Shown: positions 1,233-29,262 of the stretch, in pieces
Layout: every line of letters starts with the position of its first letter
Position numbering within the stretch: position 1 is the first letter of the stretch
NCBI GenBank assembly: GCA_003242895.1
Contig: QKMY01000067.1
Coordinates: forward strand, 1-35,920
From: Candidatus Margulisiibacteriota bacterium
GTDB taxonomy: Bacteria; Margulisbacteria; Riflemargulisbacteria; GWF2-39-127
Length of the DNA: 35,920 bases
Direction: 5' to 3'
The notes under the pieces: model-generated
Told to the model about the DNA's origin: nothing
Databases searched by the model: none
What the model saw: the letters and a program-made list of their open reading frames with translations, nothing else
Position numbers and translations under genes: made by a program

Positions 1233-1862
1233 TTACTTGATCAGATATTTCTTCATTTCTTTTATTGCATTTTTCGCATCCTTATTGGTGGGGTCTATTT
1301 GAAGTATTTTTTTAAATTGATTTGCAGCCGATGAATAATTCCCCAAGTAAAATAGTGCAATTGCAAGGTTATACCTGCTACCGATATCGTTAGGATTTTT
1401 TTGCAAAATTTTGATGCAATATTTGCTAGCGGAATTATAATCCTCGCTTGCAGCGAAAATATCTGACAAAAGACCAACTGTTTCTTTTGTCTCTCCTGCA
1501 TAACTGATTGCAGTATAGGCTTCTTCCAATGCTAGGTTATATTGTTTTTTTATCAAATAAAGTCGTGAAAGGGTGATTCTTGCTTCGACATCGTCTGCCT
1601 TACTCTGGACTGCATCCAAACATCCCAGTATTTTAACATCGGTATCATGCTCTTCATAGTAATTGACTACATCTTTTTTATTATGAGGATGTTGCGCCAG
1701 GTCGTATCTTTCAATTTGTTCAGCTGGACTTAACAACGCTTCTTCATGTCCAAGATCGAAGAGTAATCTTTTACAGTGAGGACAAAAAAGTTTGTCCGGA
1801 GAATGAGGATGAGGAATTGCAATTTTTTTGTTAATTACTATTTTACATCGTAAGCAGATCAC
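1233..1862 (-). CDS. Zinc-ribbon and TPR-repeat protein
   Basis: A 209-residue soluble protein. The N-terminus carries two cysteine pairs (C3/C6 as CLRC, C27/C30 as CPHC), the pattern of a small zinc ribbon. Residues about 70-205 are TPR helices, with clear repeats such as YNLALEEAYTAISYAG and NPNDIGSRYNLAIALFYLG. TPR proteins are usually scaffolds for protein assembly; no partner can be read from the sequence. It starts 24 bp after the PglZ-domain gene on the same strand and is the last gene of the long minus-strand operon, so it may act with that protein. I do not recognise a named family. Confidence 0.75.
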   Translation of the reverse strand: MICLRCKIVINKKIAIPHPHSPDKLFCPHCKRLLFDLGHEEALLSPAEQIERYDLAQHPHNKKDVVNYYEEHDTDVKILGCLDAVQSKADDVEARITLSRLYLIKKQYNLALEEAYTAISYAGETKETVGLLSDIFAASEDYNSASKYCIKILQKNPNDIGSRYNLAIALFYLGNYSSAANQFKKILQIDPTNKDAKNAIKEMKKYLIK

Positions 1863-1886: not shown

Positions 1887-3539
1887 TTATTCCGGTTTCA
1901 TAATAATATAAGGTACTAGTATTTCAGTAATTGATGCTCCACCATGTACATACTCGTAGACTCTCTTCCGGTCGTCAGTATCGAATTTGAATGGTCCCCG
2001 GCAAAAAGCATAGTTAACATTATTATCGCCTGGAAGAAGAAATGTTTCAGGATTAAGGAGAAGATGGGTGTTTGCCGTCTTGAAATCCGAAAGTTTATCA
2101 ATCCGTGCTTGTCCGATGAGAAATCGGTCGGGTACATGGGATAGATTTTCTTTTTGATCAAAACCCTTAATATTGAATTGATTAACTCGAATTGTCTGTT
2201 GTGCAAGAACGTTTCCGTGATCGCTTGTAATAATTAGAATTCCTTTGTTTTTTCTTATCAACTCAAAAGTAGTTGCCATGATGTTTTTGCTGAACTCGAC
2301 TATAACGTGTTCTCGAAATAGGGATTCATCAGTCCTTGTGTGGCTCATTGAGTGGGTAAGTCCGTCAATAAAGAGATATATCAGTGCTGTAATGTCAGCC
2401 GGGTTTCTCTCAGTTTTTTTGAGTTTTTCAAATGCACTGCTTGTTTCCGCATGATGTATATACTTTCCGGTGAGACCATGGTTTTTTAAGTACTTATGAA
2501 AAAGTAACTCTTCATACTGATTGTTTAATAGTTGACCATGATAGGCTTCCAGTGAGCATTCTTTCGGAGATTTGCCTGCTAACAAGCTGTTTCGGCAGTA
2601 AGCAGTATAGGTAGGCAATAATGACCAGGAAATATTCTCCTGTATTGAATAACTTGGGAACTCTTTGTTGAAGATAGGTTTTACCTTTAGCCAATGATCA
2701 AATCTCATTGAATCAAATACCAACAGATAAACTGGCCGTGCAAAATTTTGTGATCGAATATCATCCAGTATATTCATGATGAATAAGGGATGTGGTTCTC
2801 CTTCTTTTTGCCAAACCGGGAAGTGCTTTAAATAATAATTTGTAAATTTATAATCGATATTTGATTTGATTTTCGAAAAGTTAGTAATGATATCCTCTTT
2901 GTGGCGGAACGAGTCAAGTAATATATCAAATTCACAACTTTTGTAATACAATTCCTCCCATTCCTTAAACGAATGAGGTGTAACAGACTGAATTACTGAC
3001 ATTGCTTCTGCCAGGTTTGGTTCTATGTTATTTATTTTTCCGGCAATTACATTTATTTTATTTTCCCAGGAAGAGAGATCTTTCTTGATAGCGGAATTTT
3101 CGATATAAAGATATATTAGTCGAATAAAGAAAAAAGTTAACGAGAATAGAAGGAGTATACTTCCGAATAGCGCTAATCTAATATCATGAATAAAGTTTGC
3201 CTGAATAATTTCTATGAGGTAGTAATTATTATCATGTATAGCCAATTTTTGGTTTTCGGATATCTTTTTCAAAGCTGACGGAGATATTCTTGTAATAGAC
3301 AATATAGCTCCTTTTGCTTTGTAATCGTCAAGAATTGAAGGTATTGAGGTGGCGCTTTGCACTTCCTTTTTTATTTGATTTAATAGTTCTTCTTTTCCGG
3401 TGCGGATATTGTTTTCAATTTTAGGAAAAACAAACCCAACGTGAATAATGAATACTACCATTAGTGAAATGAGTAAGGACAATGTCAGTGAACTGAAGTT
3501 GCGTTTGTTGTTTCTAGTGAAAATATTTATTTTAGCCAT
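1887..3539 (-). CDS. Transmembrane PglZ-domain (PorX-like) phosphoesterase
   Basis: The 550-residue protein has TM1 (about 16-38), a segment of about 80 residues likely outside the membrane (39-120), TM2 (about 122-145), a linker, and a PglZ domain of the alkaline phosphatase superfamily (about 265-550). Metal and catalytic signatures are present: FDSMR (D276), LLPTYTAYCRN (candidate nucleophile T310 or T312), FIDGLTHS (D392, H396), TSDHGN (D440, H441) and a C-terminal VHGG (H532) followed by EILVP. The pattern resembles the PglZ half of PorX, the type IX secretion regulator, but the receiver half is replaced by a two-TM sensor-like module. The start codon lies inside the end of the DinG-like gene (13-bp overlap), so translation is coupled. 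Domain call is strong; substrate and role are unknown. Confidence 0.8.
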   Translation of the reverse strand: MAKINIFTRNNKRNFSSLTLSLLISLMVVFIIHVGFVFPKIENNIRTGKEELLNQIKKEVQSATSIPSILDDYKAKGAILSITRISPSALKKISENQKLAIHDNNYYLIEIIQANFIHDIRLALFGSILLLFSLTFFFIRLIYLYIENSAIKKDLSSWENKINVIAGKINNIEPNLAEAMSVIQSVTPHSFKEWEELYYKSCEFDILLDSFRHKEDIITNFSKIKSNIDYKFTNYYLKHFPVWQKEGEPHPLFIMNILDDIRSQNFARPVYLLVFDSMRFDHWLKVKPIFNKEFPSYSIQENISWSLLPTYTAYCRNSLLAGKSPKECSLEAYHGQLLNNQYEELLFHKYLKNHGLTGKYIHHAETSSAFEKLKKTERNPADITALIYLFIDGLTHSMSHTRTDESLFREHVIVEFSKNIMATTFELIRKNKGILIITSDHGNVLAQQTIRVNQFNIKGFDQKENLSHVPDRFLIGQARIDKLSDFKTANTHLLLNPETFLLPGDNNVNYAFCRGPFKFDTDDRKRVYEYVHGGASITEILVPYIIMKPE

Positions 3540-6292
3540 TGTTTAATTGTTTTTACTAAATCGTCTTTATTTACGATACAGTGCTCAATGTTTTTAAAAA
3601 CGTTATTAATAATCTGGGAATAAGAATATTTATGATTATTAAAAGATAGATTTACTATTGCTGTCTTTTTATTACACTGCCGAATCATGTTATTGAGTGT
3701 CGACTGGCATGTTAAAATAGCTTCAGGTATAACTAAATCAAGTAGCCAGTTTTTATTGTTTTTTCTATAATTCCTGATTTTTGTTTTTAACAAAGGCAAT
3801 GTGATATCAGGCAATGGAAAATCTATAAATATTATACAAGAAATTTGCACATTAGAAAGGTTTATATTTTCAAAAAAATTGTATGTTCCAATAATAGTTG
3901 CTCCTGGCGAGCAACAGAAAGTATTTATTAGTGTGTTTTTTGATTTATAGGAATCTTGATGTAGGATCATTTTTTCCGATTTTGAGAAAAATGGTACTAA
4001 TTCCGAATGTATTTTTTTTACAGTCTTCAGATGCTTACTGACAATTAGTACTTGACCTGGGATTGCTTTTATTGACTTTTTAATAGTTTCCCGTTGAAAT
4101 TGCTTTAATTGTTTAATAGTAGCGAGTTGAACTGAGGGTATCGGACTAAAAAACTTTGTGGTATTAATGAGGGCTTTTGATTCGTTTTGTATACATCTAT
4201 AATCATCAAAAGTTTTGTCAATTAGGGTATTTTCCAGAAAATAATTAAACTTGTCATTTATTGTTATATAAGGTGAATGAAAGATAATATTATCGATATT
4301 CAAAATATTATCACCTAAATATTTTTCGTGATTAATTAATACTGTATGCAGAGTAGCAGATTTGAACTCCTTCTTATTGTATATTTCTATCCATGACGTA
4401 AAGTATTCTGATGGATGAGCGACATTTTTAAGGCTGCCACTTAAACTTTTTATCTGATGGCTAAAGGTGATCAATCGAAATATAATGTTATTTAAAAATG
4501 AGAGATCTGCCTTTTCTAATATGGTTTTTAATTTTTCAGCTTTTTTTAAGCAAAGCGTTATTTTTTTATAAATTGCATTAATTAACGCCAGTATCTTTTT
4601 CCATTGGACTGTGGTTCTTGTTGTTTTGGTAAGCATAATTGTATCCTTGATTTTTATGTTACTACGGCTAGAATAAGTATCAATCAAGGAATCGAATAGA
4701 GAATTAGCAAGTTCAGTACATAAAGCAACTTCTTTTGTTAGTTTTTCTGATTCTTTTATAATTTTTCTTTGCAATGCCGGAAGGACCGTAATAGTTTCAA
4801 ATCTCTCAACCATTTCCTGCATAATATTTAGATTGTAAGATCCAAGGTTATTGCAAATTTTTGAAATAACTTTTATAGATAACACAACTTTATTATTAGC
4901 TGTGATAATTTCACTGATTTTATGGGAATCGTACAGTATAAGGTTGTAATTACTAGGAAGGAAATATCGAATTGAATGATCTTTGGAAATCATCGTTTCA
5001 TGTTTAGTAATGAGTAGGTTCGTATTCGATAGTTTTTCTTTTTTAGGTTTTAAATAGCATTTATCTGAATATGTGCATTTATAATTTAGGCAAACAGAAG
5101 GCTCGCAATATAAGGTTTTATGGAATTGATAATATGTTTTTTTATGAAGTTCTGTAAGAAGTCCGGTTTCTGTTAATGATAACCAGGTGAGAACCGGTGC
5201 TAATTCAATTACATCATTTGTTTTTCCTGACACTGTGAGTGAATGAAGCAACGTTTCAACTTTTGCCAGACACACATAATCATTCGCGTTATTGAATGTT
5301 GAAATGACGAGATCTGGCAATAATGGAGTTATTGAATTGCATATATCAAGTATCTGTGCCTGGGTAGCCTCATTCAAAACAGAAATTACTACTGGCCTAT
5401 TATTTTGAACTGACCACAGTGCTGCTGGTAATATGTTTTGTAACAGCGATTGGTTATCATTTTTAGCTTCGATAATTAAGTATCTGTTTTTATTGAAAGA
5501 ATTGCATGTTTCTTTGAGCAGTAAAGTATCGTCACAATTCCCTGCAATAGCTTTGAACATGTTTTTAGTTTTTGCATAAATTATTTTTTTTTCTGTACAC
5601 GGTTTTGGATTAGATGAAAGGATGTTGGTTTTCGGTTTAAGCAGTGAATGCCACTCAAACTTTAGATCATTCTCTTGTCCGTGTTTAATTCTTTGTTCAA
5701 AACATTTCTCGATTATCTGGGCTGTAGGAGAATTGCAATAATGGAAAAGTTTTGTCATTTGAAAAAGCAGGTTAGCATCGAGTTTCTTTATTTCTTCAAC
5801 TGTTTTTAGAAATAGGATAGCAGTGATCCTGGCATCAGTGATGGCCTTGTGAAATGTTTCCGTAACATTTAAGAAACTTCTGGCAATCCTCTCCAGCTTG
5901 TAGCTCTGAGCACAAGGCTGAATTATCGAAAAAAGCTGAAGCGTGTCAACCGTCTTACAATCGAGCTTTGACAGGAAATTACTCGAATAAGTTCGATTGA
6001 TTATCGAATAATCAAAGTTAACATTATGTCCAACGAGTATCGCATCTCCTATGAAATCACGGATTATATCCGCAACTTCAAGAAAACTAGGCGCATCTTT
6101 CACGTCATCATCGGTTATTCCTGTTAAGCTTGATATAATCGGGGGGATTGATTTTTTTGGTTTTAGGAAGGTATTGAATTCTTCATGCAACGCATTGCTT
6201 TTTATTTTAACCAGGCCAATATCGATAATTTCATTGTCATCATAAGCTAAGCTGGTTGTTTCAACATCGACAACTACAAAATTCATTTTCAT
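3527..6292 (-). CDS. DnaQ-type exonuclease fused to a degenerate DinG-like helicase
   Basis: About 921 residues. The N-terminal 170 residues are a DEDDh 3'-5' exonuclease with all catalytic residues: DVET, HNVNFD, and HKAITDA (numbering from an upstream TTG: D11, E13, H91, D96, H150, D155). The rest follows the DinG/XPD-like helicase layout seen in Firmicutes exonuclease-DinG proteins. All four Fe-S cysteines appear kept: C343 in DYVCL, then C403-x4-C408-x5-C414, the spacing of E. coli C194/C199/C205. The ATPase motifs are gone: Walker A EAGTGTGKT reads EAKNDNQSL, DEAH reads YDSH, and QGFGRLIR reads STLNNMIR. It is probably an active nuclease on a dead helicase scaffold. Candidate starts are TTG 6298, ATG 6292 and ATG 6286, none with a strong ribosome site. 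It is cotranscribed with hflX (upstream) and the PglZ gene (overlapping). Confidence 0.85.
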   Translation of the reverse strand: MKMNFVVVDVETTSLAYDDNEIIDIGLVKIKSNALHEEFNTFLKPKKSIPPIISSLTGITDDDVKDAPSFLEVADIIRDFIGDAILVGHNVNFDYSIINRTYSSNFLSKLDCKTVDTLQLFSIIQPCAQSYKLERIARSFLNVTETFHKAITDARITAILFLKTVEEIKKLDANLLFQMTKLFHYCNSPTAQIIEKCFEQRIKHGQENDLKFEWHSLLKPKTNILSSNPKPCTEKKIIYAKTKNMFKAIAGNCDDTLLLKETCNSFNKNRYLIIEAKNDNQSLLQNILPAALWSVQNNRPVVISVLNEATQAQILDICNSITPLLPDLVISTFNNANDYVCLAKVETLLHSLTVSGKTNDVIELAPVLTWLSLTETGLLTELHKKTYYQFHKTLYCEPSVCLNYKCTYSDKCYLKPKKEKLSNTNLLITKHETMISKDHSIRYFLPSNYNLILYDSHKISEIITANNKVVLSIKVISKICNNLGSYNLNIMQEMVERFETITVLPALQRKIIKESEKLTKEVALCTELANSLFDSLIDTYSSRSNIKIKDTIMLTKTTRTTVQWKKILALINAIYKKITLCLKKAEKLKTILEKADLSFLNNIIFRLITFSHQIKSLSGSLKNVAHPSEYFTSWIEIYNKKEFKSATLHTVLINHEKYLGDNILNIDNIIFHSPYITINDKFNYFLENTLIDKTFDDYRCIQNESKALINTTKFFSPIPSVQLATIKQLKQFQRETIKKSIKAIPGQVLIVSKHLKTVKKIHSELVPFFSKSEKMILHQDSYKSKNTLINTFCCSPGATIIGTYNFFENINLSNVQISCIIFIDFPLPDITLPLLKTKIRNYRKNNKNWLLDLVIPEAILTCQSTLNNMIRQCNKKTAIVNLSFNNHKYSYSQIINNVFKNIEHCIVNKDDLVKTIKQWLK

Positions 6293-6356
6293 AAACAATC
6301 ATTCGTTATCCATAAAAAAAGAGAATGGAAGACTTTCCTAGCTTTGTTTAATTTCA

Positions 6357-7643
6357 TCATTCAATAATATAATCTTTTATAATATGCAATAAATCATTTT
6401 TCATCTCAATTTCCATTTTAACACCATTTTTTTCATAATTTTCTTCAATAATAGTAGTCTTTTGATGAAGAAAGTCTACAATGTTCATGTGATCGAATGG
6501 AATAAGTACTTTATGAGTCTTGCGGTATTGGCTTAGTAGCTCTTCTATTAAGAACATCGCATTTTCTATTCCGATATCTTCTTTTAATGAAATACCTGTG
6601 CAAGGATAGTACTTCTTTCGGTAATCATCGAGTATCTCTTTGTTTTCGAGCCTATCAATTTTATTGAGTAGGGTAATCATCGGCTTATTTGCTACCTTTA
6701 GTTCTTCTAGGACATGATACACTGAGTCAATAAGAAACCGGGGATTAGGGGCGCTAATGTCTACCACATGTATAAAAAAATCCGCTTCTTCTACCTCTTC
6801 AAGCGTTGCTCGAAAAGCAGAAACAAGGCTATGCGGTAATTTGTTGATGAACCCTACCGTATCAATTAAAAGTATTTCCTGGTTTCCTGGAAGACGCATT
6901 TTTCTTGTAGTCGTATCAAGGGTTGCAAATAATTTATCTTCTGCCAGAACATTTGCGTTAGTTAGTTTGTTAAGCAGTGTAGATTTTCCTGCGTTGGTAT
7001 AGCCGATAATTGCAGCAGTAGGGATAGTTTTGTTCAATCTTTTTTTTCTATGTAGTTCTCTCTGGTTTTTAATTTCCTCGATTTTATCCGAAAGAAACGA
7101 GATTTTGTTTCGGATTGTTCTTCTATCGACTTCAATCTGCTTTTCCCCTGGGCCTCTCGTACCTATTTTCCCTACTTGCCGGCCTAAGTGCTCCCACATT
7201 CTTGATAAACGAGGTAACTGGTAGCTTAGAGCAGCAAGCTCGACCTGCAAAATGGCTTCTTTCGTGTTTGCCCTCTGGGCGAAAATCAATAATATGAGTT
7301 CCGTTCTGTCTACTATCTTTAATTGGTTTAATCCTGTTTCTTCTCTAAGCGCGGTTTCCATGTTTTTTTGCTGAGAAGGACTGAGTTCGTCATCGACAAT
7401 GATAATATCAGGTTTTTTGATTTTAATATCTTCCGCTATTTCAGTTATTTTGCCTTTTCCAAAATAAAGCCTGGAATCTGGGTTGTGTTTGTTTTGCGTA
7501 TAGCTGGTTATTACTTCGATTTGCGCTGTGTCAGCGAGCAAAGCGAGTTCTTCCATGGAATAGCGAAAGTAATATTCGTTAACTTTTGAAGTTTTTAGTC
7601 CGAGTAAAGCAGCCTTTAATTTGCTGGTACTAGAAGTTTCCAT
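6357..7643 (-). CDS. hflX: GTPase HflX
   Basis: HflX is a ribosome-binding GTPase that splits stalled or stressed 70S ribosomes. Seen here: the N-terminal HflX domain with YFGKGK (about 63-68), the linker signature GTRGPGEKQIEVDRR (about 164-178), and a G domain with P-loop GYTNAGKST (217-225), DTVGF (264-268) and NKID (330-333). The length of about 428 residues is normal for the family. I place the start at ATG 7643 rather than the in-frame TTG at 7652. Either start overlaps the receiver gene, so translation is probably coupled to it. The downstream partner is the exonuclease/DinG-like gene, 60 bp or so away. Confidence 0.95.
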   Translation of the reverse strand: METSSTSKLKAALLGLKTSKVNEYYFRYSMEELALLADTAQIEVITSYTQNKHNPDSRLYFGKGKITEIAEDIKIKKPDIIIVDDELSPSQQKNMETALREETGLNQLKIVDRTELILLIFAQRANTKEAILQVELAALSYQLPRLSRMWEHLGRQVGKIGTRGPGEKQIEVDRRTIRNKISFLSDKIEEIKNQRELHRKKRLNKTIPTAAIIGYTNAGKSTLLNKLTNANVLAEDKLFATLDTTTRKMRLPGNQEILLIDTVGFINKLPHSLVSAFRATLEEVEEADFFIHVVDISAPNPRFLIDSVYHVLEELKVANKPMITLLNKIDRLENKEILDDYRKKYYPCTGISLKEDIGIENAMFLIEELLSQYRKTHKVLIPFDHMNIVDFLHQKTTIIEENYEKNGVKMEIEMKNDLLHIIKDYIIE

Positions 7644-8007
7644 GAGCGGCAAAATAATCGTTTAAAAATTTTATAACATTATTTACCTCAAAAGGCTTAA
7701 TAAAGTGTTCAATGACGTTTTCCGGGAGCTTATCCAATGTTGTATTATCTGCGTATGCTGTTATTACAACCACTGGCAACGTAGGTTTCAGTCTATACAT
7801 GGATTCAATTGCCGTTATTCCATCAATATTTCTCATTTTTAAGTCAATTAGCGCTAAGTCAATCAGCGTGTTTTGTGTGGACATTATGGCTTCAACTCCA
7901 TTATCACATTGGATAACGTTAAATCCGGCTTTTTCAAGTAGGAAGGCCATAGATTTTCTGAGGCTGGTTTCATCATCCGCAAGCAAAATGTTTTTGATGT
8001 TATTCAT
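7630..8007 (-). CDS. Stand-alone response-regulator receiver domain
   Basis: A 125-residue CheY-like receiver with no output domain. Conserved positions are present: acidic pair D11/D12, phosphorylation site D55 (LALIDLKM), T83 and K104 (FIKPF). A GAGGAG ribosome site 7 nt upstream fixes the start at ATG 8007; an upstream ATG at 8022 overlaps that site and is unlikely. The start lies inside the 3' end of gpsA (8-bp overlap) and the stop lies inside hflX, so expression follows the operon. No histidine kinase is in the window. The partner is unknown; the PglZ-domain protein in the same operon is one candidate, because in PorX a receiver and a PglZ domain are fused. Confidence 0.9.
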   Translation of the reverse strand: MNNIKNILLADDETSLRKSMAFLLEKAGFNVIQCDNGVEAIMSTQNTLIDLALIDLKMRNIDGITAIESMYRLKPTLPVVVITAYADNTTLDKLPENVIEHFIKPFEVNNVIKFLNDYFAAHGNF

Positions 8008-9037
8008 ATGATGTCTCCTCATATTCCAATTTCAACTTTCTTTCCATAAGATTATTAATAGCTTGCATAGGTGATAAGTTTTTAAAAAGAACATTGTAGA
8101 CCTGTTCTATTATTGGTAATTCTACCTTATGTTGCTTTGATACTCCATAGATTATTTCACAAGTCTTTATGCCTTCTGCTATAGACCCGATGCTTGAGAC
8201 GATCTCATCAATTGTTTTACCATGAGCCAGCTGGAATCCTACTTGATAGTTGCGGCTTAATGGTGAGGTGCATGTGGTGATGAGATCCCCCATGCCTGCC
8301 AATCCCAGCATAGTAGAAGGTTTTGCTCCTAATGTTTTTGCGAGCTTGGTTATCTCATAAATACCTCTTATCATGAGTGATGATTTTGAGTTGTTTCCTA
8401 ATTCAAGTCCATCTGCAATTCCCGCAGCAATTGCAATAATATTTTTAAGAATTCCGCCTAGTTCTATTCCAATGATATCTTCGTTTGTGTAAACTCTAAA
8501 ATATTTATTGCTTAGTGCTTGCTGCGCGGCTTCGGCTGTTTTTATGCTTTTCGAAGCAATAACTGAAGTCGCTGGTTTTTTTTGTGCAATTTCAAGTGCT
8601 ATGTTTGGTCCTGAAAGTATCCCAATATTGTCATGGAGATACGCCGGGAGTTCTTCGCACAAAATATCATACGGTGTTTTAGCCGTGTTTTGCTCCAAGC
8701 CTTTGGTCGCGCTAATAACGACAGTGCTTTGTTTGATTTTGCTTACTATGTTTTTGCAAGTATTCCTGAAGAACTTTGAGGCTACAACTATTATTATAAT
8801 GTCACTATCCAAAAAATCGTCCGAGAACTCAGAATGAAATGTAATAGAATTCGGAAGCTCTATTCCTGGTAACAGATTGTTTTTTCGAGAAACGGTCATT
8901 TGTTGCTTCAGGGTTTTGTCGTGGGTCCAAAGCTTGACCTTATGAGAGTTATCTGAAGCAATAATTGCGAGTGTTGTTCCCCATGCGCCGCTTCCGATTA
9001 CTGAAATTTTTTTTTGTGATGGTTGCACGATTGTCAA
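8000..9037 (-). CDS. gpsA: NAD(P)H-dependent glycerol-3-phosphate dehydrogenase
   Basis: GpsA reduces dihydroxyacetone phosphate to sn-glycerol 3-phosphate, the backbone for phospholipid synthesis. The 345-residue protein has the Rossmann motif VIGSGAWGTTLA (13-24), the conserved KGLE (112-115) and SGPNIALEIA (142-151) blocks, and the catalytic lysine K198 in LGGILKNI. The start is TTG 9037, which overlaps the plsY stop as TTGA and has an AGGAG site 8 nt upstream. Pairing with plsY is metabolically sensible because PlsY consumes the product. Confidence 0.96.
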   Translation of the reverse strand: MTIVQPSQKKISVIGSGAWGTTLAIIASDNSHKVKLWTHDKTLKQQMTVSRKNNLLPGIELPNSITFHSEFSDDFLDSDIIIIVVASKFFRNTCKNIVSKIKQSTVVISATKGLEQNTAKTPYDILCEELPAYLHDNIGILSGPNIALEIAQKKPATSVIASKSIKTAEAAQQALSNKYFRVYTNEDIIGIELGGILKNIIAIAAGIADGLELGNNSKSSLMIRGIYEITKLAKTLGAKPSTMLGLAGMGDLITTCTSPLSRNYQVGFQLAHGKTIDEIVSSIGSIAEGIKTCEIIYGVSKQHKVELPIIEQVYNVLFKNLSPMQAINNLMERKLKLEYEETSYE

Positions 9038-9817: not shown

Positions 9818-10201
9818 TCAGAGGACAAGATGTTTATGTATTTTTTTCAGGAGATCTTCGTTGTTGAAGGGTTTTTTTAGGATATCGTCGCAATTTGAAT
9901 GGAGCTGTATCCCTCCTGTCATATTTGGGGTAGCTGTAATTAATATGATCGGGATGTTTTTATATTTTTCTTTTGTTTTTAACATTTGCGAAAATAAATA
10001 GCCATTCATAACCGGCATTTTTATATCAAGAAGTATCAGGTCGGGTGTATTGGTATTTAATAGTTGAAAAGCATGATTCCCATTGGATGCAGCCAGTACG
10101 TCGTAGCCTTCGAGTGAAAGATAATATTTTAATGCAATAACAATGTTTTTGTCATCGTCAATAATTAGTATTTGTTTTTTTTCTGTGTCCGCCATAGCCA
10201 T
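9818..10201 (-). CDS. Stand-alone response-regulator receiver domain
   Basis: A 127-residue CheY-like receiver with no output domain. Key residues are present: acidic residues D15/D16, phosphorylation site D59 (LILLDIKMP), T89 and K110 (LKKPF). Two ATGs begin the frame (10201 and 10195) and neither has a strong ribosome site. It is about 190 bp upstream of the plsY operon on the same strand and close to the sigma-54 activator, which lacks its own receiver. A signalling link to that activator is possible but not shown. Confidence 0.9.
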   Translation of the reverse strand: MAMADTEKKQILIIDDDKNIVIALKYYLSLEGYDVLAASNGNHAFQLLNTNTPDLILLDIKMPVMNGYLFSQMLKTKEKYKNIPIILITATPNMTGGIQLHSNCDDILKKPFNNEDLLKKIHKHLVL

Positions 10202-10622: not shown

Positions 10623-12125
10623 CTATTGTGATAGCTTAATGCGGTATTCTTTTATTTTAGTATAGAGTGTTGTTCTCGAGATGCCTAGTTTTTCTGAGGT
10701 TTTCTTGATATTGTAATTTGATGCATGCAAGGCTATCTCTATAGCCTCTTTTTCTATTTCCGATAAGGTTCTTATCCTCTCAATATCGACAGGGTGATTC
10801 TTTGGAGACAGGTGGCATGAAGCTGTAGGGCCTTCTTTCAGTAAGTTAGAGTTTTTTTGGATATTGATGTCCTGTAATTGGATAATCGAGTCTCCGGCAA
10901 TAATTACTGACCTGTGTATTGTATTTTCAAGCTCCCTTACATTTCCTGGCCAAGTGTACTGAAGGATTGTCTCCTGGGCAGTATTTGATATTGCCGATAT
11001 GTTTTTTTTGTATTTATTAGAATATTTATTCAGAAAATAAAAAGTAAGAGGCAGTATGTCATCTTTTCGATCCTTAAGCGAAGGCATGTTAATTGGGAAA
11101 ATATTAAGCCGGTAAAGCAGGTCTTTTCTAAACTTTCCTTCTTGCGTAAGCGTATCCAAATCTCTATTTGTAGCAGCAATAATTCTCGTATTTACTTGGA
11201 TGGTTTTTGTTCCTCCGACACGTTGTATCTGCATGTTCTGCAGTGCTCTGAGTAGCTTAACTTGTGCATTAAGGGGAAGCTCGCCGATCTCATCAAGAAA
11301 CAACGTCCCCTCTGAAGCTAGTTCGAATTTCCCCAGTTTTTCGTTGATTGCCCCTGTGAAAGCCCCTTTTTCATGGCCAAAGAGTTCGCTTTCTATTAAC
11401 TCCCCTGGAAGTGCACCGCAGTTTATTGCTATAAAGGGGTGTTTCTTTCGTGGTCCGTTATAATGAATGACCTCGGCGATAAGTTCTTTTCCTGTACCGC
11501 TTTCTCCTTGGATAAGTACAGTTATCTCCGTGTCAATTATTGTTCCGACAAGCTTGAATATTTCTTGCATTTGCGGGCTCTGTCCGATTATATCCACAAA
11601 ACTCTTATTATTATTGATTTGGTACCGGAGATAAGAAATGACTTCATCGCGTCTTTTTACTTCTTTTTGATGATCTTGTGAGTATTCTTCGAAAGCAAAA
11701 ATGCCCATGATATCGAGTAGATTGTTAAAATTAGTAATCTCTGCCGAGATATTGAAATTAGGTTTTTTACTATAGTTTTTATTCAAAAAATCAACAAAAG
11801 TTTTCTTCAGAGAAAATAGGTACATAGCTGTATCTTTTGCTGTATAGCCTAATCTGGCTTTTGATTTGCTAAGCTTTATAAGCATTTTTATTATTGGTTC
11901 AAGCTCTTTTGGTTCAATGTCGTGAATTGGCGTGTTTTTAGTGATATCTAGTAAAGATGAGATTAATTGTTTCGATTCTTCTTTGAGCAAAGGGGATGCG
12001 TTATCATTGTTTTGAAAGAACGTGTTACGGCTAAGTTCTTCCATCCACTTATTTATGATTTCCTCCTTGTTTTTTTCAAGAATGGAATAGGTAGCTAACA
12101 TTTGTTGTTTTTGATGATCTTTCAT
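10623..12125 (-). CDS. Sigma-54-dependent activator with RsbR-like N-terminal domain
   Basis: A 500-residue enhancer-binding protein that would remodel RNA polymerase-sigma-54. The AAA+ domain has Walker A GESGTGKE (207-214), the sigma-54 contact loop GAFTGA (254-259), Walker B LFLDEI (275-280) and WPGNVREL (392-399). The C-terminus is a Fis-type helix-turn-helix (about 455-495). There is no receiver domain. Instead residues 1-150 are an alpha-helical region that resembles the N-terminal sensor of RsbR-type stressosome proteins (conserved W27 in IINKWMEEL). That match is by eye. Target promoters were not identified in the window. Confidence 0.93.
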   Translation of the reverse strand: MKDHQKQQMLATYSILEKNKEEIINKWMEELSRNTFFQNNDNASPLLKEESKQLISSLLDITKNTPIHDIEPKELEPIIKMLIKLSKSKARLGYTAKDTAMYLFSLKKTFVDFLNKNYSKKPNFNISAEITNFNNLLDIMGIFAFEEYSQDHQKEVKRRDEVISYLRYQINNNKSFVDIIGQSPQMQEIFKLVGTIIDTEITVLIQGESGTGKELIAEVIHYNGPRKKHPFIAINCGALPGELIESELFGHEKGAFTGAINEKLGKFELASEGTLFLDEIGELPLNAQVKLLRALQNMQIQRVGGTKTIQVNTRIIAATNRDLDTLTQEGKFRKDLLYRLNIFPINMPSLKDRKDDILPLTFYFLNKYSNKYKKNISAISNTAQETILQYTWPGNVRELENTIHRSVIIAGDSIIQLQDINIQKNSNLLKEGPTASCHLSPKNHPVDIERIRTLSEIEKEAIEIALHASNYNIKKTSEKLGISRTTLYTKIKEYRIKLSQ

Positions 12126-18674: not shown

Positions 18675-21626
18675 ATGAATAATAAAGGAAAAAATATCGG
18701 CAAGGATATCTATACATTTATAAAATACAAGATCATAAGTATAGATCGAGGAGGATTATGGAATATAGAACATCCGGGTAGTAGATTTAGCGTTAAAGGT
18801 AACAATCCTATATCAAATGCCATCAACAATCTTTCTAATCAAATAACCTCTATTGCTAGGAAAATTGCGATAACAATTCCTATCAATTCGAATGAAGGGT
18901 ATAAATCTGAAGATGGCAGGATAATAACGCAGAGTGAGGTCGAAGAGGCATTAACGAATCATTTTGGAGTAGAGGCTGGTATAGCAAATAAGTATTTAGA
19001 AAATATTTTTGCCCATTTAGAGAAAAGTATTATAGCCGAGTTTAATGATATGAAGGCAAGGAATCTTGATCTGAAGGATCGAATTGAAAAAGCACTGGAA
19101 ATAGATGAAGACCGCCGAGATCCGGATATACAAAAGCTAGGTGCCGAATTAGGTGAGCTTACAAAGGATTTTTTTAAGTTTCTGGTTGACCATGATATTC
19201 CTTTTATAATTGAAATGACTTCAGAAATAGGTGTACAGAATTATATCCATACGTATAGTGGCGGCTTAGGTGTGCTTTCAGGAGACAAACATAAAGTGCT
19301 TACTGATATGGGGATACCTGCAATTACTTTTGCCTTATTGCCAAATCATGGATATGGTGGACAGCAGATAAACTTCGTTAATAAAACAGTTATGTCTCCT
19401 CAAGATAAATGGAATCCTGCAGACAGTCCTTGGATATCTGAAATCGGTAAGCCTCAAAGTGTTATTCACGGCAAGGATTTCAGAGGGGATATCCGATTTG
19501 CCTTTAATAATATAAAAGGAATAAGCAGGGAACAATCTGAGAAGATACTTAACGCTCTTGATGCTTCCGGTGAGAATTATATTCATTCGCAATTAACAAA
19601 AGAGAGCGATGAATTATTGGCAATAGACTATCAGTCAATAATGCCTGGTCTTAACGACTATAGCGATATAGATCAAGAGGTAAGGGGTGTGCTTAAGAAA
19701 TGTTATAGTATTGAGGCTCAGCTGTACCTGCACGGTTACATCGGGAAGGATGGCATGATCAATCCGATCGTCTATATGTCAACGTATCATTTGCAGCAAG
19801 CTGCTCATAAACGTAACGTAACCGAGCAGCTTTATCCGAGTGGATGGCTGAAGCTGGCGGCACAATTCTGTTTGCCTAACCTAATGGAAAATTTTACAAG
19901 AGAGAGATCTATTAAAAAATCAATTATCAATTTGAATGAAGGGCATATGGCTTTCACTCCTGTAATTATGATGCGAAAGTATTTGGAAGAACATGGTATT
20001 GATCTTTCAGATAAATCAAAAATTGATGAAATTGTGGAAAATAACAAGGCACTTCTATTGGAAGCATTGCTTTGGGTAAGGAGTCAGGTCTCTTTCGTCA
20101 CTCATACAATTGACCCGTCTGCTTTTGACACTTATAAACAATATGATGTTGACGCAGTGGTGGATCCCCGGGATAAGCATATGATCTATGTCCTGGATAA
20201 TAAAGAATTCCCTAAAATTAATAATTACGTTTCTAAAAAAGAGTTACAGAGTATGTGTAGTAAAATAGATAGAAATGAATTTGATAAGCTATTGTCCGAT
20301 CTATTTATTAATCCTGAGGACGATATGTTGGTTGCTAATCCTCAACATAGCTATGCACAAATTATCGCAAAAGCTGGAAGAATTTTGACTGATAATGGTG
20401 ATATAGATGAATTTACAAAGATACTTGACAAGTCTAAGGTTGAGTTCGGAGGTTGGGGTTGTAATAAAGACGGAGCCTCTTTACTCATGGCGCCTCTTTC
20501 AATGTTCTTTGCCGGAATTGCTAACGCTGTAGCAAAAATCCATGAAGAGGTTACAAAAAAATCTGTATTTCCTCATGTTGCGGATGTGGCAAGAATGGGG
20601 AATGTTACCAACGCGATACATGCTCTTACTTGGTGGGGGGGGGCGAAGGACTTGGTTCGATTACTACAACCTTTAATAGGGAATGTTTCTAAAGAATATT
20701 TTAACGGATACAAATTCATGATGTTAAAAGATAATAAAGAATTTCAAGATGTAATTGCTAAAACTCATTTAAAGGAAAAATATGAGACTCTTGGCTTTAT
20801 TAATAAATTAGTAAAAGATCAATTTGGAGTCAGCGATCTGCTTAATGTTAACAACATTGATAATACATTGACTTGCGTATTTGCGCGAAGGTCTAAAGGG
20901 TACAAACTTAATAATCTATTTGTTGATAAAGCAGTTATTGAAGGTTATAAAGAAATAACTAAAATGTTAACTGATGATCAACGAATTGTTATCGTTGCCG
21001 CTGGAAAAGCTCATCCTAATGATGGGGAAGGGCAAGGCTATGTCTCAAATATCATTAATGAACAACAACAAATATATGATGCAACAGGAAGAAAAGTGAT
21101 TGTATTATATGTAGAAGATTATGACATGAATGATGGCAAAGTTTTTTCGAAATTCGATCTTTGTATAGCTAACCCGGTTGTTGGATGGGAAGCTTCTGGT
21201 ACCAGTCCAATGAAAAATCCTTTAAGACTTATTATGCATACCTTTGATGGTTTTTTTGCTGAGTTTGCCCAGGTTGCAAAAAAAATATTTGGAATTGATT
21301 CCGCATCATTTGGATTTGGCCCTACAAATGTTGAAATAGATTATAAAAATGAGAATATTAGACAAAAATATGCTCAGGCGTTTAAAGATCAGTTTATTGC
21401 AGTTGCCGATACTTTCTTTAATAATCGAGATAGCTGGGTCAAAAAACAAATTGAACAATTATCAATATTTACCTCGTGCTTCCAGATGGAACGGTTTGCA
21501 GAAAATTATCTGACCGAATGGAAAAATGTTAACAGTTTTGACTCACAATTGAATAAAAAAGCTACTATTGATTTTTCGAAACAGTTTGACAAAAACAAAG
21601 ATGAATCAAGCCAGGTGGTTCGATAA
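18675..21626 (+). CDS. Divergent alpha-glucan (glycogen) phosphorylase, GT35 family
   Basis: This family phosphorolyses alpha-1,4-glucans to glucose 1-phosphate using pyridoxal phosphate. In 983 residues the GT35 landmarks appear in order: YSGGLGVLSGDKHK (about 194-207), NLNEGHMAF (about 419), VTHTIDPSAFD (about 475, where homologues usually read THTPVPAGHD), AAGKAHPNDGEG (about 775) and EASGTSPMKN (about 838). The last holds the expected PLP lysine, but the usual GTSGMKAALNG reads GTSPMKNPLRL. The protein is longer than many bacterial GlgP enzymes and has a charged N-terminal extension of about 150 residues. A run of nine G bases sits in frame at 20635-20643. A hairpin follows the stop. I am confident of the fold, less so of substrate and activity. 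Confidence 0.85.
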   Translation: MNNKGKNIGKDIYTFIKYKIISIDRGGLWNIEHPGSRFSVKGNNPISNAINNLSNQITSIARKIAITIPINSNEGYKSEDGRIITQSEVEEALTNHFGVEAGIANKYLENIFAHLEKSIIAEFNDMKARNLDLKDRIEKALEIDEDRRDPDIQKLGAELGELTKDFFKFLVDHDIPFIIEMTSEIGVQNYIHTYSGGLGVLSGDKHKVLTDMGIPAITFALLPNHGYGGQQINFVNKTVMSPQDKWNPADSPWISEIGKPQSVIHGKDFRGDIRFAFNNIKGISREQSEKILNALDASGENYIHSQLTKESDELLAIDYQSIMPGLNDYSDIDQEVRGVLKKCYSIEAQLYLHGYIGKDGMINPIVYMSTYHLQQAAHKRNVTEQLYPSGWLKLAAQFCLPNLMENFTRERSIKKSIINLNEGHMAFTPVIMMRKYLEEHGIDLSDKSKIDEIVENNKALLLEALLWVRSQVSFVTHTIDPSAFDTYKQYDVDAVVDPRDKHMIYVLDNKEFPKINNYVSKKELQSMCSKIDRNEFDKLLSDLFINPEDDMLVANPQHSYAQIIAKAGRILTDNGDIDEFTKILDKSKVEFGGWGCNKDGASLLMAPLSMFFAGIANAVAKIHEEVTKKSVFPHVADVARMGNVTNAIHALTWWGGAKDLVRLLQPLIGNVSKEYFNGYKFMMLKDNKEFQDVIAKTHLKEKYETLGFINKLVKDQFGVSDLLNVNNIDNTLTCVFARRSKGYKLNNLFVDKAVIEGYKEITKMLTDDQRIVIVAAGKAHPNDGEGQGYVSNIINEQQQIYDATGRKVIVLYVEDYDMNDGKVFSKFDLCIANPVVGWEASGTSPMKNPLRLIMHTFDGFFAEFAQVAKKIFGIDSASFGFGPTNVEIDYKNENIRQKYAQAFKDQFIAVADTFFNNRDSWVKKQIEQLSIFTSCFQMERFAENYLTEWKNVNSFDSQLNKKATIDFSKQFDKNKDESSQVVR

Positions 21627-26137: not shown

Positions 26138-26593
26138 ATGAAAGAATCTGATGAACAATTAGATGAAATACTATATAATCTGGCTTTTGGTGATGATTTA
26201 ATCGCTAGAGAAAAGGAAATATTTTCCAGGCTTGGAAAACAGTATTCGTCTGGAGAACTAGTTGTCAAAGAAGGCGATGTATCAGATCAGCTATTTTTGG
26301 TTGTGTCCGGCTCTCTAAAAATTGTAAAGGATATCGGAACTGAAGATGAAAAAGCTATAGCCTTATTGACTGATGGCGAAATGTTTGGAGAAATGTCGTA
26401 TTTTGATAACCTGCCGAGATCGGCAAGTGTGGTTGCAGCTACAGATTCAGAAGTGCTGGTTCTAGATCGGGAACAGTTCGATATGATATTTCAGCTGCAT
26501 CCTAAATGGACAACCAAGATTATTCAGTCATTATCAAATAGAATATACCTGGCTTATTTAGATTTAAGAAACTCTGCTGAAATACTTTATTAA
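26138..26593 (+). CDS. Cyclic-nucleotide-binding-domain protein
   Basis: A 151-residue protein made of one CRP-type cNMP-binding beta-roll (about 25-145) with no DNA-binding domain. The phosphate-binding cassette is nearly canonical: FGEMSYFDNLPRSASVVA (about 88-105), including the Glu that holds the ribose and the Arg that holds the cyclic phosphate. It should bind cAMP or cGMP. The gene is followed after 12 bp by a related gene without the cassette, then by an adenylate cyclase, so the three likely share a pathway. No ribosome site stronger than a weak AATAAGT is visible. Confidence 0.85.
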   Translation: MKESDEQLDEILYNLAFGDDLIAREKEIFSRLGKQYSSGELVVKEGDVSDQLFLVVSGSLKIVKDIGTEDEKAIALLTDGEMFGEMSYFDNLPRSASVVAATDSEVLVLDREQFDMIFQLHPKWTTKIIQSLSNRIYLAYLDLRNSAEILY

Positions 26594-26605
26594 CAGGATT
26601 AATTT

Positions 26606-26998
26606 ATGAGATATCTTATACGTGGTGAAGAAAAAAAATATCAAAAAGGAACGGTGATTTTTCAAGAAAATTTGCCGGTCAGTAATGCGATTTGCTATCT
26701 TGTTGAAGGACTAGTGTCTGGATCAATAGAACAGGATGGGAATATCTTATATAAAGAAAATATTAAGAAAGATAACTTGATTGGGATAACTTCGAATTTT
26801 GTGAATAGAAAAAAGCACTTAGAAACTGTAATTGCTTTAACTGACGTGAAATTATATGTCTGGGATAAAGAGCAATTTATAAACGTTGTTGGAATATATC
26901 AAGAACTTGCGAAGCTGGTAATAAGTAACCTGTCCAGGCAACTAAGGAATTTAAATAAAATCCTCGCAAAAAAAGAGACGAATAATCGGGATTCATAA
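26606..26998 (+). CDS. Degenerate cyclic-nucleotide-binding-fold protein
   Basis: A 130-residue protein with the same beta-roll architecture as its upstream neighbour: YQKGTVIFQENLPVSNAICYLVEGLVSGSI near the start and VKLYVWDKEQFINVV before the C-helix. The phosphate-binding cassette is absent: the usual FGE...PRSA segment reads LIGITSNFVNRKKHLE. It therefore probably cannot bind cyclic nucleotides in the normal way and may act as a partner of the intact paralogue. The helical tail lacks an obvious helix-turn-helix. It starts 12 bp after the upstream gene, so the two are surely cotranscribed. Confidence 0.7.
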   Translation: MRYLIRGEEKKYQKGTVIFQENLPVSNAICYLVEGLVSGSIEQDGNILYKENIKKDNLIGITSNFVNRKKHLETVIALTDVKLYVWDKEQFINVVGIYQELAKLVISNLSRQLRNLNKILAKKETNNRDS

Positions 26999-27123
26999 TT
27001 TTCACAGTGAAAGATCTATCAAATTAGCTTCAAAAAGTTAATTATTCATGATAATAAATAAAAAATACCGCATGTTTGACGTCTAAAAAGGTGTTCGACA
27101 TTTTTTTTGAAAAATAGGGATAT

Positions 27124-29262
27124 ATGAGACCTGTAATTAGTATTTTAAAGAAAAAAAGTTTCTGGCTTGTTTTCATCATTTCCTATGTAATGATTTTTTC
27201 TTTTATTCTCTATTCTTGTGGATATTTTGAAAAATTCGATATGGATATATATGATCATTATTCCAGAACCTATCGAAAAAACGTCAAATTAAATTCCAGA
27301 ATAAAAGTTATACTTATTGATGATGCTTCGTTAAAAAGCTTAAGCCCTGAATTAGGGCGATGGCCGTGGAAAAGATCCATTTATAGGGATATTATTCGTT
27401 TTATAAATATGGGAAATCCTCGGGCAATATACTTCGATATTTTTTTTATTGAAGGGGATCTTGATAAAAAAAATGACGATGTTTTTGCTCAAGCGATAAA
27501 AGAATCCGGAAATGTTCATCTGGGAATGAACTTTGTCGATGAAACCGAAAAAAGTTTAATACATGAAACCCTTCCAGAATTGATAAACAAAAAATTCAGT
27601 CTCAATATTCGCAATTCAAATGAGGTTTTATTTAAGCAATATAAGAGCTATATGCTTCCTTTTCCGAAGCTGGTAGATTCAACAAAATCGCTTCCTGTAT
27701 ATACCTTTAATAAAGATTCTGATGGCATCCACAGGCAGGCAGAAATTATTTATAAATTCGGAAATCATTATTATCCTTCTTTGGCTTTATCTGCTTTGAT
27801 GGAGCTATGTAACACGCATGAGGTCCATTTAAACAAGCATACCCTTAAGATAGGGAATTTCACTATTCCTCTCCGGAGCAACGGAAAAGTGTTGCTTAAT
27901 TGGTATCCATCTGATCACGAGATACTTTCTATTGGTGGAATATTGGCTTCATGGCAGCAAATTATTGAAGGAGATATTAATAATCTTATTGTTGATCCCT
28001 CAATATTTAAAGATTCTATAGTAATTATTGGGGCGAGCGCAGTAGGGTTGAACGATCTAAAAGCCACGCCAATAAATGTTGCCCTGGCAGGGTCGGAACT
28101 GCATGCCACTTTGCTGTCAAATATCCTTAATCATGATCTGATGCTATCTATAGATAAAAAGTATGTGATTATCTCTGTGATAATAATTGCTGTGATAACT
28201 ACTTTTTCGATAGTGTATATTTCGCACATTGCTAAATATTTCATAGCGGTCATTTTATTGCTATGCTATGGGATATTATCTAGATTTCTTTTTGTACGGT
28301 TTAACCTCTACTTGCCAATTACACCGGTACTGTTCACAGCTGTCATGGCGTATTTAATTTCGCTAATCTATATTAGTTTTACGGAAACTAAAGAAAAATT
28401 AAGAATAAGAAGGACCTTCTCAAAATATCTTGCACCGGCAGTGATGCATGAAGTCTTAAGAAAGTATGGGGATTTAGAACCTGAGGTAGGGAAGAAAATT
28501 GAAGCGACGATACTATTTAGTGATATTAGAAGTTTTACAACAATTTCGGAGTATTATCCGGTTGAGTTAGTAGTGAAGCTGCTTAATGAGTATTTTGAGG
28601 TGATGATTAATTCGATCCACCTTAATAGTGGAACCCTCGACAAAATGATTGGTGATGCAATAATGGCTTTTTGGAATTCTCCCATTCTTATTGAGGATCA
28701 TTCGTTAAGAGCAGTGGAAACTGCTTTCCGGATGCAGGAATTGATGGTGGTTATGAATGAAAAATGGAAAAAAGATGGATATCCTCACCTTAGGATCGGG
28801 ATAGGGATTAATACGGGCGAAGCTATAATCGGTAACATCGGATCAAGTACGAGGCTTGATTATACTGCAATAGGAGATAACGTTAATCTCGCTTCGAGAC
28901 TTGAAGGCCTCTGCAAAGTTTATAGTGCGAAGATAGTAATTAGTGAATTTACCTATGCGTATATTAAAGATATTTTTCCCTGCCGTATTCTCGACAATGT
29001 AAGGGTTAAGGGGAAGCTTAATCCTATAGCAATATATGAACCTTTGAAGAAAGAAGAGACGCACATTGCTGAAGGGTGGAACAAAATATTTGAAAGTTAC
29101 CTGCAAAGAGACTGGAATAGGACCGAGTTATTGCTACTCGCGTTCATGGATACATACCCTGGAGATGCCTTAGCGAAAATATACTATAAAAGGATAGTTA
29201 CTTATATAGCTAATCCTCCTGAAGATTGCTGGGATGGGATATGTATATTAGAAACAAAATAG
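27124..29262 (+). CDS. CHASE2-domain class III adenylate cyclase
   Basis: A 712-residue membrane sensor cyclase: TM1 (about 13-33), an extracytoplasmic CHASE2 domain (about 35-335, with VILIDDASL and GRWPWKRSIYRDII), three closely spaced TM helices (about 344-420), then a class III cyclase domain (about 455-640). The catalytic set is complete: metal Asp in LFSDIRSFT and in MIGDAIMAFW, base-selecting Lys in LDKMIGD, Thr in DYTAIGD, and Asn/Arg in NVNLASRLE. A Lys/Thr pair is known for adenine selection in CyaC-type enzymes, so cAMP is the expected product. The C-terminal tail with PPEDCWDG is typical of CHASE2 cyclases. The neighbouring cNMP-binding genes fit a local cAMP circuit. Confidence 0.92.
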   Translation: MRPVISILKKKSFWLVFIISYVMIFSFILYSCGYFEKFDMDIYDHYSRTYRKNVKLNSRIKVILIDDASLKSLSPELGRWPWKRSIYRDIIRFINMGNPRAIYFDIFFIEGDLDKKNDDVFAQAIKESGNVHLGMNFVDETEKSLIHETLPELINKKFSLNIRNSNEVLFKQYKSYMLPFPKLVDSTKSLPVYTFNKDSDGIHRQAEIIYKFGNHYYPSLALSALMELCNTHEVHLNKHTLKIGNFTIPLRSNGKVLLNWYPSDHEILSIGGILASWQQIIEGDINNLIVDPSIFKDSIVIIGASAVGLNDLKATPINVALAGSELHATLLSNILNHDLMLSIDKKYVIISVIIIAVITTFSIVYISHIAKYFIAVILLLCYGILSRFLFVRFNLYLPITPVLFTAVMAYLISLIYISFTETKEKLRIRRTFSKYLAPAVMHEVLRKYGDLEPEVGKKIEATILFSDIRSFTTISEYYPVELVVKLLNEYFEVMINSIHLNSGTLDKMIGDAIMAFWNSPILIEDHSLRAVETAFRMQELMVVMNEKWKKDGYPHLRIGIGINTGEAIIGNIGSSTRLDYTAIGDNVNLASRLEGLCKVYSAKIVISEFTYAYIKDIFPCRILDNVRVKGKLNPIAIYEPLKKEETHIAEGWNKIFESYLQRDWNRTELLLLAFMDTYPGDALAKIYYKRIVTYIANPPEDCWDGICILETK

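Follow-up and report, generated by a model that had tools for sequence, protein, structure and literature searches.

PglZ domains have so far been known in cytoplasmic proteins, and a gene in a 35,920-nt stretch of a Candidatus Margulisiibacteriota genome (contig QKMY01000067.1; the whole stretch analysed is called the window) raises the question of what such a domain does when it is apparently mounted on the membrane. In this study, the gene, its product (here TM-PglZ), its relatives and its surroundings were investigated. We observed that the product places a module of two transmembrane (TM) helices and an intervening loop (TM-loop-TM) before what is predicted to be a PorX-type helical bundle and a PglZ fold, with a complete metal site as judged from sequence and model. 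Our reading, held with middling confidence, is that TM-PglZ would be a one-component inner-membrane phosphodiesterase on the plan of PorX, with TM-loop-TM replacing the receiver (REC) as the dimer switch.

The gene and its membrane module

The plus strand across 1887-3539 is full of stops, and the minus strand holds one uninterrupted frame of 550 codons. The first-pass annotation had given exactly these coordinates, its residue numbers all agree with the translation, and the layout that it proposed, TM-loop-TM-linker-PglZ, is fully supported, the two TM helices by two hydropathy peaks and the inside position of the catalytic domain by the charge pattern. The start codon lies within the 3' end of the dinG-like gene, with an overlap of 13 nt, and no clear Shine-Dalgarno sequence was found before it; translational coupling to the dinG-like gene is probable. 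Because GC content and codon usage are ordinary in comparison with the window neighbours and the overlap is present, the gene is not an obvious chimera. A recent horizontal transfer was considered and set aside as unsupported by this ordinary composition, and an old transfer, in view of the absence of the gene from relatives in the phylum, may have occurred.

Table 1. Positions of the TM-PglZ gene, the parts of its product and the adjoining genes in the window
Feature	Position	Strand	Remarks
TM-PglZ gene	1887..3539	-	550 aa; ATG at 3539, stop included
TM1	3420..3485	-	residues ~19-40; hydropathy 2.66; model helix 12-62
Loop	3183..3419	-	residues 41-119, likely extracytoplasmic; no Pfam match; pLDDT <50 over 76-117
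TM2	3099..3182	-	residues ~120-147; hydropathy 2.28; model helix 109-148
Linker helix and three-helix bundle (PorX THB equivalent)	2811..3089	-	residues 151-243; model helices 151-185, 191-211, 215-243
PglZ / alkaline-phosphatase-superfamily domain	1890..2732	-	residues ~270-550; Pfam, PDB and fold matches
Zinc-ribbon-like N-terminal CxxC...CxxC + TPR protein	1233..1862	-	24 nt downstream of TM-PglZ
DnaQ/DinG-type exonuclease-helicase	3527..6298	-	conserved neighbour
Stand-alone receiver (REC) gene	7630..8022	-	between gpsA and hflX; possible partner

Exactly two regions of TM grade were detected (Kyte-Doolittle, 19 aa), with peaks of 2.66 at residues 20-38 and 2.28 at residues 128-146, separated by a loop of ~75-80 residues. 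Residues 1-18 carry four positive and zero negative charges, and this +4 N-terminus suggests that the loop is extracytoplasmic and the PglZ domain inside; by hydropathy and charge only, two TM helices with a cytoplasmic output fit the layout of a one-component sensor. The reverse orientation, with PglZ facing outward as an ENPP-like ecto-phosphodiesterase, would recall the ENPP enzymes, which are extracellular and share the fold, but we find it scarcely credible, for the N-terminal charge and the lack of an obvious signal-peptide cleavage motif speak against it, the even number of TM helices sets both termini on one side, and the PglZ proteins of PorX and BREX are cytoplasmic.

The loop gave no match beyond noise against Pfam, NCBIfam and PHROGs, and family searches recognised no conserved sensor domain in TM-PglZ, the model of the loop being unreliable. 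Residues 1-184 folded alone yielded a low-confidence helical hairpin only, and no second copy of these N-terminal 184 residues was found in the same genome. That the TM-loop-TM-PglZ layout has been found in one sequence of one genome so far counts against our preferred reading, as does a loop that has low pLDDT and matches no known sensor fold.

Relatives and distribution of the layout

Relatives were sought by scanning 84,980 GTDB species genomes with two degenerate peptide patterns, whose alignment took in one hand-altered fragment to widen the motifs; the scan covers PglZ proteins bearing at least one of the patterns. There were 466, of which the best 80 were used and confirmed by tblastn with the TM-PglZ protein. 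Nearly all of these 80 carry a receiver motif (DDE) and measure ~520 aa, that is, REC-bundle-PglZ, and the receiver occupies exactly the place that TM-loop-TM takes in TM-PglZ; the single BREX-like member is a Halorarius plasmid protein. Their hosts belong to Gemmatimonadota, Eisenbacteria, Latescibacterota, Krumholzibacteriota, Zixibacteria, Poribacteria, Cloacimonadota, Bacteroidota, Ignavibacteriota and Chlorobiota. The T9SS is usually confined to Bacteroidota. As a side observation, the PorX-type REC-bundle-PglZ proteins (L022-L101) occur well outside that phylum, in the first six of these groups.

None of the best 80 of the 466 relatives has N-terminal TM helices, all being soluble, and among the ~90 PglZ proteins examined only TM-PglZ exceeds a hydropathy of 1.8 N-terminal to the catalytic core; the layout is apparently unique among them. 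Identity to the PorX-type relatives is only ~22-28%. A scan of genome contigs with TM-PglZ as the single query gave no match. Annotated matches on plasmids and phages were PorX or BREX PglZ, none with demonstrated TM helices, and the viral contigs scanned held a single PorX-bearing contig. In the open-access literature, no title or abstract was found to describe a PglZ protein with a transmembrane or membrane part. Weak PF08665 matches of ~500 aa in six genomes of the phylum were set aside: those of G005, G023 and G073, when translated, resemble cofactor-independent phosphoglycerate mutase, and those of G013, G021 and G026 are assumed to be the same enzyme.

Helical bundle and PglZ fold

TM-PglZ matches the Pfam PglZ family (PF08665) with 43 bits (E 5e-11, cut-off 25), and its top sequence match in the PDB is PorX (E 7e-13). 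An AlphaFold2 model made from a 34-row alignment reaches pLDDT >85 over most of residues 180-450 and 510-550, mostly >90 in the PglZ core, and falls below 50 at residues 1-9, 76-117 and 458-468. The modelled core has the alpha/beta alkaline-phosphatase fold, and in a Foldseek search of the PDB PorX chains take every one of the first 17 ranks (E between 1e-26 and 4e-22), with phosphonoacetate hydrolase and ENPP/NPP enzymes coming after them, so the PorX-like PglZ core that had been proposed is borne out by the predicted structure. A viral structure library gave only weak phosphodiesterase and sulfatase fold matches. As the PorX alignments span 412-436 columns, the match includes the three-helix bundle, a part shared with PorX that had gone unmentioned in the first-pass annotation. 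Its aromatic residues F232 and W243 are invariant, and W194 nearly so, in 33 relatives, and in the model the TM2 helix runs directly into the bundle helices.

These features bear on the main rival to transmembrane control, a plain constitutive anchor, in which the TM hairpin would only keep a permanently active phosphodiesterase close to the membrane, where it might for instance act on a membrane-associated or lipid-linked phosphodiester, and the loop would sense nothing. The low-confidence loop without a recognisable sensor domain agrees with this, as does the fact that ENPP6 and ENPP7, which are among the fold matches, act on choline- or sphingolipid-type phosphodiesters. Yet a loop of ~80 residues and a helical connection from TM2 to the bundle exceed what an anchor needs, and the best-known member of the family is a signalling protein; we consider the anchor unlikely, though worth keeping in mind.

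Catalytic site

The zinc ligands in TM-PglZ are D276, T312, D440 and H441 for one ion and D392, H396 and H532 for the other, and all seven are identical in 80/80 of the best 80 of 466 relatives; R316, K359 and T310 are likewise invariant among these. In F. johnsoniae PorX (PorXFj), the zinc ions are bound by T271, D237, D414 and H415 and by D360, H364 and H499 (PMC10951265, PMC11320123). The metal site was thus rightly described earlier as intact, with every PorX ligand present, and of the two threonines then offered as nucleophile T312 stands and T310 falls, because the spacing of four from T312 to R316 matches that from T271 to Arg275 in PorXFj. In an alignment of five proteins that includes BREX-3 PglZ, moreover, T312 is shared by all and T310 is not.

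R316 and K359 align with the auxiliary-site Arg275 and Lys329 of PorX and are kept, whereas Asn357 of the PorX auxiliary phosphate site is L389 here. Changes of the PorXFj interface serines S384 and S388 abolish activity and hamper zinc-induced dimerisation; these PglZ-interface positions align with E410 and V414, in columns that vary among the relatives too. With E410, V414 and L389 in place of the PorX residues, the dimer contact and the substrate may differ from those of PorX. Judged by its residues, TM-PglZ is likely an active enzyme.

Gene neighbourhood and genome context

Seven class relatives have hflX ahead of dinG; six of these show the full order plsY-gpsA-hflX, and in the remaining one the contig stops at hflX. 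Neither a receiver between gpsA and hflX nor a PglZ gene after dinG occurs in any of the seven, so among the class relatives only this genome adds the receiver, TM-PglZ and TPR genes to the plsY-gpsA-hflX-dinG row. The first-pass annotation had mentioned neither this row with its receiver gene nor the apparent uniqueness of the layout. The TPR gene has a good ribosome-binding site, and its protein is present in the class at other loci, with no PglZ beside it there.

That a receiver gene and a PglZ gene without REC appear together in this row, with neither in the class relatives, suggests a split PorX: the receiver of 7630-8022, once phosphorylated by a kinase, would act in trans on the bundle of TM-PglZ, and the TM helices would only localise the latter. 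This receiver scores 64 bits to the PorX-REC profile; however, it is generic, its best PDB match being Spo0F with PorX lower, and its proximity is weak evidence because the genome has 57 receiver matches (query P0005) and a second stand-alone receiver lies close by (9818-10201, minus strand, upstream of plsY). On balance the split arrangement seems rather improbable to us.

Again, a defence effector was weighed, that is, a membrane-tethered PglZ nuclease derived from a BREX-type PglZ, and was judged very unlikely. The NCBIfam BREX-3 PglZ score (104 of 250 bits, other BREX PglZ models being lower) nearly equals the PorX score of 112 bits, a nuclease activity that depends on metal is reported for a type I BREX PglZ (PMC12205998), and in the tree TM-PglZ joins the archaeal BREX-like protein of Halorarius with support of 95/99. 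Both branches of that pairing are very long, at 2.8 and 4.5 changes per site, so it is not relied on; moreover, the BREX N-terminal extension is absent and no BREX genes are nearby. The sole other PglZ of the genome sits in a BREX-1-type set on another contig (L012, G000:C17, 3421-15989), with a PglX-like methylase, BrxL and a BrxC-like ATPase. As this set lies elsewhere and the neighbours are plsY, gpsA, hflX, dinG and TPR, TM-PglZ is not part of BREX.

A single GGDEF protein is encoded in the genome, alongside three with DHHA1, so PglZ is not needed as a pGpG hydrolase, though it might serve as one. Elsewhere in the window, at 26138-29262 on the plus strand, two small cyclic-nucleotide-binding-domain proteins directly precede a CHASE2-guanylate/adenylate cyclase, possibly a cyclic-nucleotide signalling set. 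A sigma-54 activator (10623-12125, minus strand) has an N-terminal part that matches RsbRD_N and not a receiver, an uncommon pairing, and a 983-aa protein (18675-21626, plus strand) shows a partial carbohydrate phosphorylase match at residues 601-917 and no match in its first 600 residues.

Proposed mode of action

PorX is a zinc-dependent phosphodiesterase whose bundle and PglZ domain are active without the receiver, and it dimerises through REC and PglZ interfaces, driven by REC phosphorylation as well as by zinc (PMC11320123). On our preferred reading, the one-component phosphodiesterase, the two TM helices would fix TM-PglZ as a probable dimer, the extracytoplasmic loop of ~80 residues would receive or stabilise a signal, and the helix of TM2 would extend into the bundle, the part by which PorX links its receiver to PglZ. 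The membrane module would in this way bring about dimerisation and move a helix in response to a stimulus, and so set how two cytoplasmic PglZ domains, with two zinc ions each, are arranged in the dimer. T312 would be the nucleophile that attacks a phosphodiester, and the likeliest substrate would be a linear or cyclic (oligo)nucleotide or another signalling phosphodiester. Direct transmembrane control would take the place of receiver phosphorylation. The envelope-sensing, cyclic-oligonucleotide phosphodiesterase suggested at first sight may hold within this scheme. More tentatively, the protein could be the first of a class of transmembrane one-component PglZ phosphodiesterases in which what is sensed at the envelope directly controls, by way of the PorX bundle, how a nucleotide second messenger is hydrolysed; a receiver might in addition act in trans, giving a split, membrane-bound PorX.

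Comparison with known systems

TM-PglZ belongs to the PglZ / alkaline phosphatase superfamily and is neither PorX nor a BREX PglZ by their defining features. On our reading it resembles PorX in its output and a TM one-component sensor in its input. With PorX (the T9SS response regulator, REC-THB-PglZ; NF052313; PDB 7pv7, 7pvk, 8tef, 8p6f) it shares the order of bundle and then PglZ, the seven zinc ligands, the bundle aromatics and a similar length. PorX has an N-terminal receiver, whereas residues 1-190 of TM-PglZ form TM-loop-TM and give no REC match, and the PorX interface serines and Asn357 are not kept. The NCBIfam PorX equivalog score lies far under its cut-off of 300 bits, the T9SS marker SprA, whose cut-off is 200, scores 26 bits in this genome, and no PorX passes the cut-off in any of 74 genomes of the phylum. 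TM-PglZ is thus not PorX proper, as it lacks the receiver, scores below the cut-off, has changed interface serines and comes from a genome in which the T9SS marker SprA stays under its cut-off.

BREX-3 PglZ (NF033449) and the Halorarius PglZ (WP_255152837.1, 29% identity over residues 194-547) likewise combine a helical segment with a PglZ core and the same metal residues, but they carry long N-terminal extensions, have no TM helices and sit in BREX or BREX-like gene sets, unlike TM-PglZ. The Halorarius protein is closer to TM-PglZ than BREX-3 PglZ is, and its plasmid (L017, 1-8452) holds in a row a BrxA-family gene, a gene for a 1301-aa hypothetical protein, PglZ and a metallophosphoesterase. 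NPP/ENPP enzymes and phosphonoacetate hydrolase (PhnA), of the alkaline phosphatase superfamily, share the catalytic fold and the two-metal site; they have another cap, lack the PorX-type helical bundle, and are extracytoplasmic or metabolic enzymes.

The exchange of the receiver for a membrane module, with the bundle and catalytic domain kept, suggests that the bundle is a portable coupler, and TM-PglZ offers a way to study PglZ output apart from a two-component system or the T9SS. TM sensor kinases, GGDEF/EAL proteins and class III cyclases have the same TM-loop-TM input and a presumed helical coupling, and differ in that their output is a kinase, a cyclase or EAL; on the computational evidence of one genome, PglZ would add to the output domains known behind such inputs.
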